Part shown: piece by piece, positions 19,101 to 46,892 of the stretch | How the letters are laid out: every line of letters starts with the position of its first letter | How positions within the stretch are numbered: the first letter of the stretch is position 1 | Origin: Chamaea fasciata | Taxonomy: Eukaryota > Chordata > Aves > Passeriformes > Sylviidae | DNA length: 64,000 nt | Reading direction: 5' to 3' | Assembly: GCA_029207755.1 (NCBI GenBank) | Contig: JARCOQ010000025.1 | Location: forward strand, 5,014,820-5,078,819 | Position numbers and translations under genes: made by a program | Notes under the pieces: model-generated | The model's input: the letters and a program-made list of their open reading frames with translations, nothing else | Database searches by the model: none | What the model was told of the DNA's origin: nothing

Positions 19101-19140
19101 AGGCCTGTGGGGGGCTCAGGGTGCAACATCTACAAAGTAC

Positions 19141-19146
19141 TTTATT
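19141..19146 (-). other. Poly(A) signal of GSTM-A, unit 1
   Basis: TTTATT on the plus strand reads AATAAA on the gene strand, about 125 bases after the GSTM-A stop. The same signal in unit 2 is at 32111-32116, only about 40 bases before the duplication junction. Confidence 0.8.
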
Positions 19147-19268
19147 GTCCTGGGGGGCATGTGGGGATAGGTGCCATGCCAGTGGTGCCATCCCCCCCCC
19201 AAGGATGGAGGACGCTGGGGGGGCTGGGTTAGGACTCCCCCCCACCCTCCGAGCCCCATGCCGAGCTC

Positions 19269-42200: not shown

Positions 42201-45200
42201 CCACACCCCAATCAAGGATGGGCTGGGGGCTCCGCTCATCCCCAGGGTTTGGGAGCCTCCCGTACCGCATGGACATCCAGTGTGTCCACGCTCAGGTCGT
42301 AGGCTGTGAGGTTCATCGTCTCAAACACCTCCTTGAGTGTCTGCTCCTTCCCCTTCTCCACGTGGACAATTTCATCCAGGTGCTTCTTCATTGCCCGCTT
42401 GATGAAGCGCAAGAGATGCTTCTGGTTCATGCAGGACGAGGCATGGATGTGGGTGTCCACCTGCAGCAGTGAGGTGATGCTCAGCCCTGAGACCCTCCAA
42501 GAGCTCCCCAGGAACCTCCCGGGACCCGGGACTAGCTCAGGATCCACAGGTACCTTGCGGATATTGTAGAAGTCACGGTGAGGCACCTTCTTCTGGGCTG
42601 CCAGCTCCTTCATCTCGTTGAGCAGCACATGCATCTGGAACTTGTTGCTCAAGTACTGCAGTCGGCGGTAGCAGAAGGATTTGCTGCCCAAAACGGGGAA
42701 GAGGGGCTCAGTTTGGGGGTGAGGAAGCAGAACATCCCGCCCCAAAAGGCTGGTGCCCCCACAGATACGGGGACACAGACTCTTGGACACTGGTGAGGGT
42801 GGATGTGGGAGCTGCACCAGCATCGTGTGCCAGAGTCACTGCCATGTCCTTGGGGCTGTCCCCAGGGCTCTGTCACACCCCCACCACAGAATCCCTCCCA
42901 GGGCAGGACCCTCCCGTGGGACCCTTCCCCTTACATGGGCCCATTGATGATCAAAGCCATGAGGAAATTCATGTCGGCGATAAACTCCTGCAGGTCGGGG
43001 TACGGCAGGTCCAGCTCCGTGCTCCTGGGGGGGACACATGTGGAGGTCACACAGCCTCCCCCAAAAACTCATCACCCCAGTGAGTAGGACCCTCCCCCTC
43101 ACAAAACTCACTTGTCAGTGATGTCCTGCTTGGTGTAGACATGCACAACACCATCCACCATCTTCAGCCCAAAGCCCAGGTCTGCCGGCATCTTCTGGGG
43201 ATCCCACATCTCGTAGGGGTGCTGCTCGGCAAACGGGGGGTGCACAGGGGCATCTGCAGCCAGGAGACACCCAACATCACCCCAGAAGCTCCTCCAGCAC
43301 CCAGCCCAGCACTGAGAGCCCCCCACACCGGGCTCACCAGCAGCCACAGGGGTCTCGGGCACCTCCTCGTAGCGGTGGGTCTCCAGGGGCTTCTCGGAGA
43401 GCTCCTGCAGGTACCGGGCCGTGGTCTTGCAGAAGCTCTGGAGCGACAGCCCCATGTACTTCTCCCGCACGAACAGCGCCTTCACCACGCTCTTGGCCGC
43501 ATCCAGCAGGTCGGTGAAGGGCACCTGGAGAGAGGACACCAAACAAAAAGCATCCCCCAAGCTGGGGTTGGCAGCCTGGAGACCCTTGCCCGGGTTCCAG
43601 GGGGGGCAGGAGGAGGCTCACCCCACATTTCTCCTCCCCAGAGATGGTGACCCGCTGGAATTCTCGCTCCAGCAGTGCCTCCCGCTCCTTGGGGACATGG
43701 TCCACCAGGCTGTCGTTCTGCTCCTTGAAGAGCCTGTGGGGACAGACGTGGCCAGTGGGACAATGACTGGTCTGCCCCACTCCCATGTACTCCAACAGCA
43801 GCATGAGCCCCACCCCAGGGACTGTGTCCAGCCCTGGAGTGGCAGGATGGTGACGTTGCTCCCAGGGACTCCACCACGAGGTTGTGGCAGCTGTGCCACC
43901 CATGTCCTCTTTGGTGGTGGCATTGTCCCCTTTCCCAAAACACATCCCCCAGCCCTGATGAGCACAGTAAGAAGAAATGGGGAGGAGGGGGGCACAAAGA
44001 ACAAAAAAACTCACGACAGAGACGACTCCCAAGCGGAGACAGGAGGGAGGGGGACACACAGCGTCAGACCCCCCATCCAGGGGAAGACAGGGCCAGGACA
44101 GGGGTCCTGTGCCAGCAGCAGAGCTGCGACCCCCAGCTCACCCCAACCCTCCTCCCCAGGTGCATTGACTCCTTCAGTGGCAGCGAGAGTGGCTGGGAGG
44201 GACCTCTTGGCTCCATGCTTGGGTGTGCTGGGTCAGAGCGGGGCCAGGTGGGTCCCCGATCCCCCCCGTGGCCCCGGCCGGTGACACCGAGCCGGACACT
44301 CACTGTAAGTCCGCAGCACTGTCAATTTTCAGGAAGTCTTGTTTGGCTCTGAGCAAAATGTCGGGCTCAAGTCTGGGGACAAGGAGGCGGCGGTGGAGGG
44401 GGGGGACAGCCAGGGGGACGAGGGGGAGAGAAATGGGGGGGGCCGGGGAGAGAAAACACCCCGTTAATGCCGAAACAACAGAAACCAGACAGAAACCAGC
44501 CAAAACTCACTGCAAAGGGGACACCAAGTGCGACACCCACGGGAGAGGGGACACAGAGCTGGCACAGAGACAGCCTCTTGGGGTGGGGAGGTGGCCTGGC
44601 CCCATGCAGGGCTCCCTTCCAGCGATTTGGGGGGATATGGGGGAACCTCCCAGGCTTACTTGACGTCCTGGCTGATCTGGCGCTCCAGGCGCTGGCGCCG
44701 CTCCTCCAGCTGCTCGATGGGGCTCTCCTCTGGGAATTCATACGGAGCCGTTCGCATCTCATTCTCAGCCAGCGAGCGGCAAAACAGCTCCTGCCCAGAA
44801 AATCCCTGCCATGAGCTGGGGACAGCCTCAGCCATGCCATGAGCTGTGCCCAGAGCAGCCCTGCCATGAGCTGTGCCCAGAGCAGCCCTGCCATGAGCTG
44901 TGCCCAGAAAATCCCTGCCATGAGCTGTGCCTGGGCTCACCCCTCTGGTTTGGGAGAGAAAGGCCCACAAGGATTCCCACACTCAAAAGTGGGAAGGATG
45001 GTGGGGAGACCCCCCGCTCCCCCAACATACACTCACTCCCCAGGACCTGGTGAACTTGGTGCCCCAGACCCACCTCAGCGATCTCCTTGTATTTGCCATC
45101 CATGGAAGTGCGCAGATCCACTGGGAAATGCTTCAGGCAATGGGGGGTCCCGGGCAGGGACCAGGCTGATTGTAGGGGTCGGGCCCCTGGGACCCCCCGC

Positions 45201-46892
45201 ACCTCTGCAGGGAGTGGGACAACATCAGCTGGGGGGGGCCGGTTCCCACCCGAGCAGGAAGGGGTTAATCAGCCCCTCCACAGGTCCCCCTCCTCACCAT
45301 GGAACTGGGATGCTCTTCCCAATGGTGGCGATGGGGAAACTGAGGCAGCGCAAGGGTAAGAGGGACCCCCCCCCCTCAATCCCCCTGGGGCACTGGGAGG
45401 GCTGCTGGCTGCACTGGGGGGCTGGAAGAAGCCAACAGTGAACGAGGGGCTCAGGGCTGGGCTGCAGGAGCCCCATGGTGTGGGGGGCACAACACTGGGG
45501 TCCACTCCCCCTACCAGTGCTGCCTCCCTGCCCCCATCCCATCCCTCCCATCACAGGGGCACATCCCCACGCCGGGAGGGAGGGAGGGAGCATCGTCCCC
45601 CCTCCAAACACACCCCACTGCCCCGCGTCCCCAGAGCACGCCCTGCTCCCCTCAGCACTGGGGCCATCGGGCGGGGAGACGCCCAGTGCCACCCCCCAAT
45701 GCCAACACCCTCCTCTGCAACCCCAGGCCCACCACAGGCCTGCCCTGGGGGGCACTGGAAATCAGGTCCTACTGGGTAAACTGGGCCCACCAGTAAAGCC
45801 CCTCCACCCAGCACAGCCTGGGGGGAAGACCCAGGTCTCCCGACCCCCGAACAGGAGCCTCCACCCCATTTGCTCCCTGCATCACCCCAACGGGAATGGG
45901 GTGACGGGCCGGTGTCACCCAGGGCAGGGTGTCATCGGGATGTGTGGTGCCTCGCCTGGGGCACGGCAACACCCAGGGTGCCCTGTGCCCCCGGGACACA
46001 TCCTGTGCCATCCACATGTGTGACAGGTGGCAGCCCTGGTGGCACTCCGAGACCCCCCCCCCCCCCAACACGGGTGCCAGACAGATGGCAACCACAAAGT
46101 GCCACCTCGCCCACCCCGTGCCACCATCCAGGACACCCTGTGCCACCCACCCAGCACCCGTGCGGGTCACCAGAGTCGGGAGCAGCCCCGGTGACGCCCC
46201 TAGACGCCCTCCCCCCCGAGAAGTACCAGCCAGGAGACAACCCCGAAGCGCCACCATCACCCTGTGTCACCACCACCATTTGCCATCCACCCAGAACACA
46301 CGTGTGCCACCCACGTGTGGGAACAGCCCCAGTGACACCCTGAGTCCCTCTCTCAACAGCGCCAGCCACAAAGTGCCACCTTGCCCACCCCGTGCCACCA
46401 CCACCCCGTGCCAGCAGCCCCCCTCGTGCCACCCACCCGAGATGGCCCCCGAGGAGCTCCCCCGCCCCCTCCAAACCGGCCCCGCTCCCCGCGTGGGGTC
46501 CGCGCCCCTCCGCATCCCCCAGCGCTCCCCCTCCTTCCTCCTCCTCCTCCTCCTCCTCCTCTGCTCTCACTGCGCCACCGAGGCGCTGGCGGGAGGGGAC
46601 ACACAGGACCCCCCAAGGCCGCTGCCACCCCTCCCGCTGCCGGGACGTGGCGGTGGGCTTCCCCCCGGCCAAAAATCCTCTAAGCACCAACGCGGCATTC
46701 CTCCCCACCCCCCAAACTGATCCCCCCACTCCCAGCACCGCGTCCCCCCCGCACTGGGCGTGACCTGGGTGTCCCCGTGGGCTGTCGGAGGGTGCGGGGG
46801 ATTTGTGGGGGGGAGGTCTCACCTGCGGGGCTGGGGGTCTGCAGGCTACCCCGCTTCTTGAAGGGACACTTGGCCGGGGGGGCAGAGGACAT
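39209..46892 (-). CDS. AMPD2: AMP deaminase 2
   Basis: Eighteen exons join in frame to 819 residues: 46823-46892, 45074-45204, 44660-44790, 44304-44372, 43622-43733, 43338-43524, 43112-43253, 42935-43024, 42554-42683, 42266-42460, 41963-42094, 41705-41868, 41456-41582, 41206-41369, 40997-41117, 40750-40923, 39861-39971 and 39209-39418. The enzyme deaminates AMP to IMP and controls adenine/guanine nucleotide balance. The N-terminus has [10 protein letters not shown], as in mammalian AMPD2, then the regulatory region ([26 protein letters not shown]). The catalytic barrel carries the zinc ligand pair His-Ile-His at about 358-360, HCGEAG near 627 and STDDPLQF near 702. The C-terminus ends SLGTH. 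The start at 46892 has an ACATGG-type context in a CpG-rich region. The 3'-UTR extends to an AATAAA at 38342-38347 (minus strand). Confidence 0.95.
39542..39706 (-). pseudogene. Relic duplicate of AMPD2 exon 12 inside intron 17, unit 2
   Basis: Diverged copy of 41606-41770 covering the 3' part of exon 12, its donor and intron. The acceptor and exon 5' half are absent. It matches the relic at 26981-27145. Confidence 0.8.
40126..40685. repeat. 17-bp minisatellite in AMPD2 intron 16, unit 2
   Basis: About 33 copies of the CACCACCAATCCCACCC unit, against about 24 in unit 1. It lies wholly within an intron. Confidence 0.95.
44806..44932. repeat. ~31-bp tandem repeat in AMPD2 intron 2
   Basis: About four copies of a unit containing GCCATGAGCTGTGCCCAGA. 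Found only in unit 2, because unit 1 has lost this interval. Confidence 0.9.
46537..46561. repeat. (CCT)n microsatellite, AMPD2 intron 1, unit 2
   Basis: About eight CCT units; the unit 1 counterpart has about 17-18. Confidence 0.9.

Follow-up and report, generated by a model that had tools for sequence, protein, structure and literature searches.

A probable young tandem duplication in the wrentit that copied two GSTM genes and a headless AMPD2

We analysed a stretch of 64,000 nucleotides from the wrentit, Chamaea fasciata (assembly GCA_029207755.1, contig JARCOQ010000025.1, positions 5,014,820 to 5,078,819; hereafter the window), in which a block of two GSTM genes, here called GSTM-a and GSTM-b, and the AMP deaminase gene AMPD2, all on the minus strand, is present twice in direct succession. 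We consider it probable that this is a real tandem duplication, either fixed or segregating in the wrentit, and we judge it to be a new case of an ordinary and known kind, a tandem duplication with truncation of a gene at its 5' end. The right copy (unit 2) holds the full gene set, with the start of AMPD2 and its upstream flank kept, and the left copy (unit 1) carries an AMPD2 that has neither its start codon nor exons 2 to 5. Judged by titles and the openings of abstracts, no description of this locus turned up among the listed papers on AMPD2, GSTM or the wrentit genome.

The two units were delimited by a self-BLAST of the window, in which 19101-32074 paired with 32071-46846 through four collinear direct matches of 96-99% identity, and by a global alignment of 19101-32070 with 32071-46842, in which 94 of 12,515 aligned bases are mismatched and 24 indels occur. 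The largest indel is a gap of 2,089 bp in unit 1, opposite position 43535 onward of unit 2; an insertion in unit 2 was ruled out as its source, since the stretch contains four AMPD2 exons. With both minisatellites set aside, the units differ at 52 of 11,598 aligned bases (0.45%), 38 of these differences being transitions, and the noncoding difference taken separately is 43 of 8,328 positions (0.52%). The copies are thus adjacent, equally oriented, each at least 10 kb long and nearly identical, as a tandem segmental duplication should be. A sequence-only reading of this DNA had already described a repeat of exactly this extent and orientation, with copies differing by point changes, minisatellite length and a 2.1-kb deletion; its coordinates proved right, and all three kinds of difference were found in the alignment. 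No additional copy of the units or their flanks of at least 1 kb appeared in a megablast self-comparison of the surrounding 264 kb. In the 1.19-Gb assembly, neither a probe from 20000-22000 (40 of 149 candidates scored) nor one from 28000-30800 (8 of 8 candidates scored) had a near-identical place beyond units 1 and 2.

In unit 2, both GSTM genes have AG acceptors, GT donors and an open frame, and their proteins match the GST_N and GST_C domains above the cut-off, with mu-class enzymes as their closest solved relatives (the class-mu enzyme 1gsu for GSTM-b; 3gtu, 1xw6 and further mu-class entries for GSTM-a). Residues 147-817 of the unit 2 AMPD2 match solved AMP deaminase 2 (PDB 26xc, 8hu6 and 8hub), and this is the only complete AMPD2 in the window. 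The AMPD2 of unit 1, by contrast, has no ATG in its remnant of exon 1 (32070-32051) and has lost exons 2 to 5, and a duplication of AMPD2 as a whole gene, with start and all exons in both copies, is therefore rejected. The earlier description of a young direct tandem duplication of GSTM-GSTM-AMPD2, with AMPD2 carried along, thus stands for the DNA segment and falls for AMPD2 as a gene, as the right breakpoint cuts AMPD2 exon 1 and a deletion took exons 2 to 5.

The unit starts just downstream of the 3' end of GSTM-a, and its other end falls within the first coding exon of AMPD2. At the junction, the end of one unit is joined to the start of the next, and each unit has its original flank on one side only, which is the configuration of a tandem-duplication junction. 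The tetranucleotide AGGC occurs at each of the two parental breakpoints, and the junction retains a single copy of it. This overlap is suggestive of microhomology-mediated joining, not proof of it, and at least 4 bp were common to random pairs of positions in the window in 2,712 of 100,000 trials. Since BLAST of the two 600-bp breakpoint neighbourhoods against each other returned no match longer than 17 bp, and the junction itself shares 4 bp, non-allelic recombination between repeats at the breakpoints is not indicated.

The headless AMPD2 of unit 1 is most likely a pseudogene. The deletion that removed exons 2 to 5 also removed the sequence upstream of the last pyrimidines of the exon 6 acceptor. 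It is very unlikely, in our assessment, that the duplication is real and this copy is nevertheless a working gene, with a start in former intron 1 and a new N terminus of 222 amino acids. A frame of this kind does exist: it opens with an ATG at 31481, crosses what was intron 1 and continues through exons 6 to 18, giving 872 amino acids that are identical, letter for letter, to the NCBI record P0196, "AMP deaminase 2-like isoform X2 [Chamaea fasciata]". It is open for 366 codons upstream of exon 6, it matches positions 10-630 of the 630 positions of the AMP_deaminase profile (PF19326), a nearly complete domain, and no replacement change separates its exons 6 to 18 from those of unit 2. However, the first 222 residues of P0196 are translated intron, and a search with them found, among 5,667 candidates, one protein, the wrentit record itself, which may be an automatic record only. 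Moreover, long open frames would be common in GC-rich sequence, and the solved constructs match from unit 2 residue 147 onward, whereas unit 1 is without residues 147-171, that is, 25 residues of the core present in those constructs.

A scan of the whole genome for the family PF00962 found only four exons, on contig C17 and none in the window, and was of no use for counting AMPD2; copies were counted with the DNA probe 28000-30800 instead. In both units, the last AMPD2 intron holds a 166-bp partial copy, 93% identical, of AMPD2 exon 12 and its downstream intron (26980-27145 and 39541-39706), which predates the block duplication because it is present in both. About 0.84 Mb to the left of the window (C25:4169502-4172579), there are AMPD-like stretches with 73-86% DNA identity to AMPD2; they belong to a paralogue, which at a guess is AMPD1.

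Neither GSTM gene of unit 1 has an intact frame, with one +1 shift in each. Both shifts are homopolymer changes, and because they are homopolymeric and the extra bases of unit 1 cluster at 21625-24873, sequencing error is a plausible source and a live possibility. The GSTM coding sequences differ between the units at 7 of 1,323 positions, like the noncoding DNA (Fisher p = 0.84), and all seven differences replace amino acids. Four of them lie within 13 bp (24029-24041) in exon 7 of the unit 1 GSTM-b, where the unit 2 residues are as in 1gsu. This cluster looks like one complex mutation; conversion from GSTM-a was rejected, by eye only. At the other three sites, all in GSTM-a, unit 1 has V, V and N and unit 2 has A, I and S. 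Among the GSTM hits with a readable motif, drawn from the 120 listed of 1,975 found, with reptiles included and some species repeated, site 1 is V in 28 of 30, site 2 is V in 20 and I in 10 of 30, and site 3 is N in all 24. Compared with these sequences, the unit 2 GSTM-a probably carries two derived residues, A and S, and unit 1 keeps the common V, V and N but has the frameshift. Several passerine GSTM protein records (P0001, P0009, P0016-P0018 and P0024) appear mis-joined or include translated intron, so that gene counts taken from annotation in this GC-rich locus are unreliable.

An assembly artefact, in which two haplotypes of a single GSTM-GSTM-AMPD2 segment were laid end to end (a false heterotype duplication), seems unlikely to us, although several observations weigh on its side or against our preferred reading. 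PMC9516828 lists heterozygosities of 0.95% and 0.34% for single birds (the column order is our inference), and because the 0.45% between the units falls within this range, divergence does not separate them from two haplotypes. The same paper gives totals of 22.2 and 4.8 Mb for false duplications on one scaffold, presumably in its two bird assemblies of the Vertebrate Genomes Project, and says that false copies were sometimes joined gap-free through wrong gap filling. The whole alignment has 13 one-base indels; in eight of them the extra base is in unit 1, and all eight lie between 21625 and 24873, as in a poorly polished stretch. AMPD2 exons 6 to 18 differ between the units at 2 of 1,947 positions, both synonymous, versus 43 of 8,328 in noncoding DNA (Fisher p = 0.011), which is not favoured for a freely decaying gene. 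Further, the DNA comparison is of one assembly from one bird, and P0196 comes from that same assembly, hence is not independent support.

What argues for a real duplication is the contiguity, the join and the distribution of damage. There is no run of N in 264 kb of the contig around the window, and the gap that is usual, if not obligatory, between falsely duplicated copies is thus absent. The units join base-exactly at the 4-bp microhomology inside an exon, and the sequence identical at the unit ends spans only 24 and 278 bp, whereas assembly by overlap would be expected to need long overlaps. The AMPD2 deletion and both frameshifts are all in unit 1 and none is in unit 2; such one-sided damage is what a redundant copy should show, and not what one would expect if unit 1 were simply one allele of single-copy genes. 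The artefact would require a single haplotype to combine the loss of AMPD2 exons 2 to 5 with two frameshifted GSTM genes. Within the preferred reading of a real duplication, and not in addition to it, there is a tentative case for its presence on one haplotype only, with wrentits being polymorphic. The low divergence between the units would fit, and PMC9516828 mentions one tandem duplication that was allele-specific and had haploid depth in one contig; against it, a single assembly is the sole basis.

If the duplication is real, its history may be sketched as follows. Very roughly 1 million years ago, template switching or microhomology-mediated repair would have linked the AGGC that follows the GSTM-a poly(A) site to the AGGC in AMPD2 exon 1; if 1.5 to 3.3e-9 changes per site and year are assumed, the noncoding difference converts to 0.8 to 1.7 million years. 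The left unit would thereby have gained two whole GSTM genes and an AMPD2 without a start codon, so that the duplication at its birth most likely amounted to an extra GSTM dose and a dead AMPD2 tail. The startless AMPD2 would then have been free to lose exons 2 to 5 through a second deletion, and the left GSTM genes may later have acquired their frameshifts, which are in the assembly but may be sequencing errors. At present, we expect the net effect to be at most an extra GSTM dose, and probably none if the frameshifts are real. The small number of changes in AMPD2 could reflect constraint on the intact copy, gene conversion, alleles that existed before the duplication, or a headless copy that is still used, and does not separate among these.

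Table 1. Features of the duplicated block and its junction (positions in the window).
Feature	Position	Strand	Details and basis
Unit 1, left copy, damaged	19101..32070	.	self-BLAST and alignment
Unit 2, right copy, genes intact	32071..46842	.	self-BLAST and alignment
Novel junction	32068..32075	.	AGGC at 32071-32074 also opens the right flank at 46843-46846; 4-bp microhomology
Deletion scar in unit 1	30818..30822	.	2,089 bp, AMPD2 exons 2-5 gone; 1-bp microhomology only
Stretch unique to unit 2	43535..45624	.	2.09 kb with AMPD2 exons 2-5; alignment, exon models
30-bp minisatellite, unit 1	19968..20834	.	29.1 copies
30-bp minisatellite, unit 2	32939-33396	.	15.1 copies
17-bp minisatellite, unit 1	27557..27971	.	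24.4 copies
17-bp minisatellite, unit 2	40118-40685	.	33.4 copies
GSTM-a, unit 1	19269..22467	-	8 exons; run in exon 1 longer by one base (22452), frame shifted; exon models
GSTM-b, unit 1	23466..25494	-	8 exons; extra base at exon 3 start (24849), frame shifted; exon models
Headless AMPD2, unit 1	26648..30809	-	exons 6-18, 1,947 nucleotides, open frame; AG acceptors/GT donors at every exon boundary
Remnant of AMPD2 exon 1, unit 1	32051..32070	-	last 20 nucleotides with donor CAG/GTGAGA, separated from start codon at the junction
AATAAA poly(A) signal of GSTM-a, unit 2	32111..32116	-	about 41-46 nucleotides before the junction; stretch after native site (19100 and below) replaced
GSTM-a, unit 2	32240..35031	-	8 exons, intact, 219 amino acids; exon models
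GSTM-b, unit 2	36030..38055	-	8 exons, intact, 220 amino acids; exon models, best PDB match 1gsu
AMPD2, unit 2, complete	39209..46892	-	18 coding exons, 819 amino acids; exon models

The left flank contains plus-strand frames that match PTB, EPS8 spectrin-like and SAM domains (one of the two PTB matches falls just below the cut-off) and belong to an EPS8-family gene, which we take by its position to be EPS8L3; a PDB search with one left-flank frame gave no match. Among its exons lies a 1-kb array (15417-16429) in which a G-rich 18-bp unit is repeated about 56 times. The right flank has G-alpha exons on both strands, presumably of GNAT2 and GNAI3, judging from identity to GNAI3 and from position. 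In mammals, the order is an EPS8-family gene, the GSTM genes, AMPD2 and GNAT2/GNAI3-like G-alpha genes, with the GSTM1-5 cluster beside AMPD2. The wrentit window resembles this neighbourhood, and in both cases GSTM genes were multiplied in tandem with a single complete AMPD2. It differs in that a single step copied two GSTM genes together with most of AMPD2 but without its start, and in that the junction has microhomology instead of the exchange between GSTM repeats of the mammalian cluster. Partial tandem duplications can also arise through template switching or microhomology-mediated repair; the wrentit block shares their head-to-tail arrangement, a microhomology of a few bases and a gene cut at the boundary, and differs solely in the genes involved, not in kind. 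With the false heterotype duplications of avian assemblies, as set out in PMC9516828, it has in common the adjacency of the copies and a divergence in the range of heterozygosity, but it departs from them in being gap-free, in the exact join at microhomology and in the one-sided gene damage.

The junction may also have consequences for transcription of the unit 2 GSTM-a, whose poly(A) signal now stands shortly before AMPD2-derived sequence. In the 60 nucleotides that start about 24 nucleotides past AATAAA, G or T makes up 58% at the native site (11 T) and 27% in unit 2 (4 T), and 43 of these 60 nucleotides in unit 2 derive from AMPD2. About 60 nucleotides beyond AATAAA lies the near-consensus donor CAG/GTGAGA of AMPD2 exon 1. 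U1 small nuclear ribonucleoprotein (snRNP) suppresses premature cleavage and polyadenylation, as stated in PMC11615310 and PMC5499120. Hypothetically, U1 snRNP bound at the AMPD2 donor would damp use of the poly(A) signal, and transcription would continue into the headless AMPD2. The junction would then have created a conjoined GSTM-AMPD2 gene under the GSTM promoter, with a putative read-through yielding either a fusion of GST and AMP deaminase or an RNA with two messages; we give this only a slim chance. Of the seven internal GSTM-a donors, five are in phase 0; splicing from these to AMPD2 exon 6 would preserve the frame and introduce no stop, for predicted fusions of 659 to 836 amino acids. 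A truncated deaminase would not be absurd, by analogy with AMPD1, which shows unrestrained activity without its N-terminal domain according to PMC6164516, although the domain removed there has 95 residues and the unit 1 AMPD2 is additionally without residues 147-171.

For the AMPD2 family, these results mean that the wrentit record named "AMP deaminase 2-like" is a 5'-truncated copy with its start in a former intron, which should enter no gene count as a second AMPD2 until transcripts support it. They also correct the claim that AMPD2 gained a copy. Once confirmed, the junction would be a natural and very young example of a duplication that removed the stretch after a poly(A) signal and put a splice site there, and read-through and gene fusion after duplication would be directly testable.

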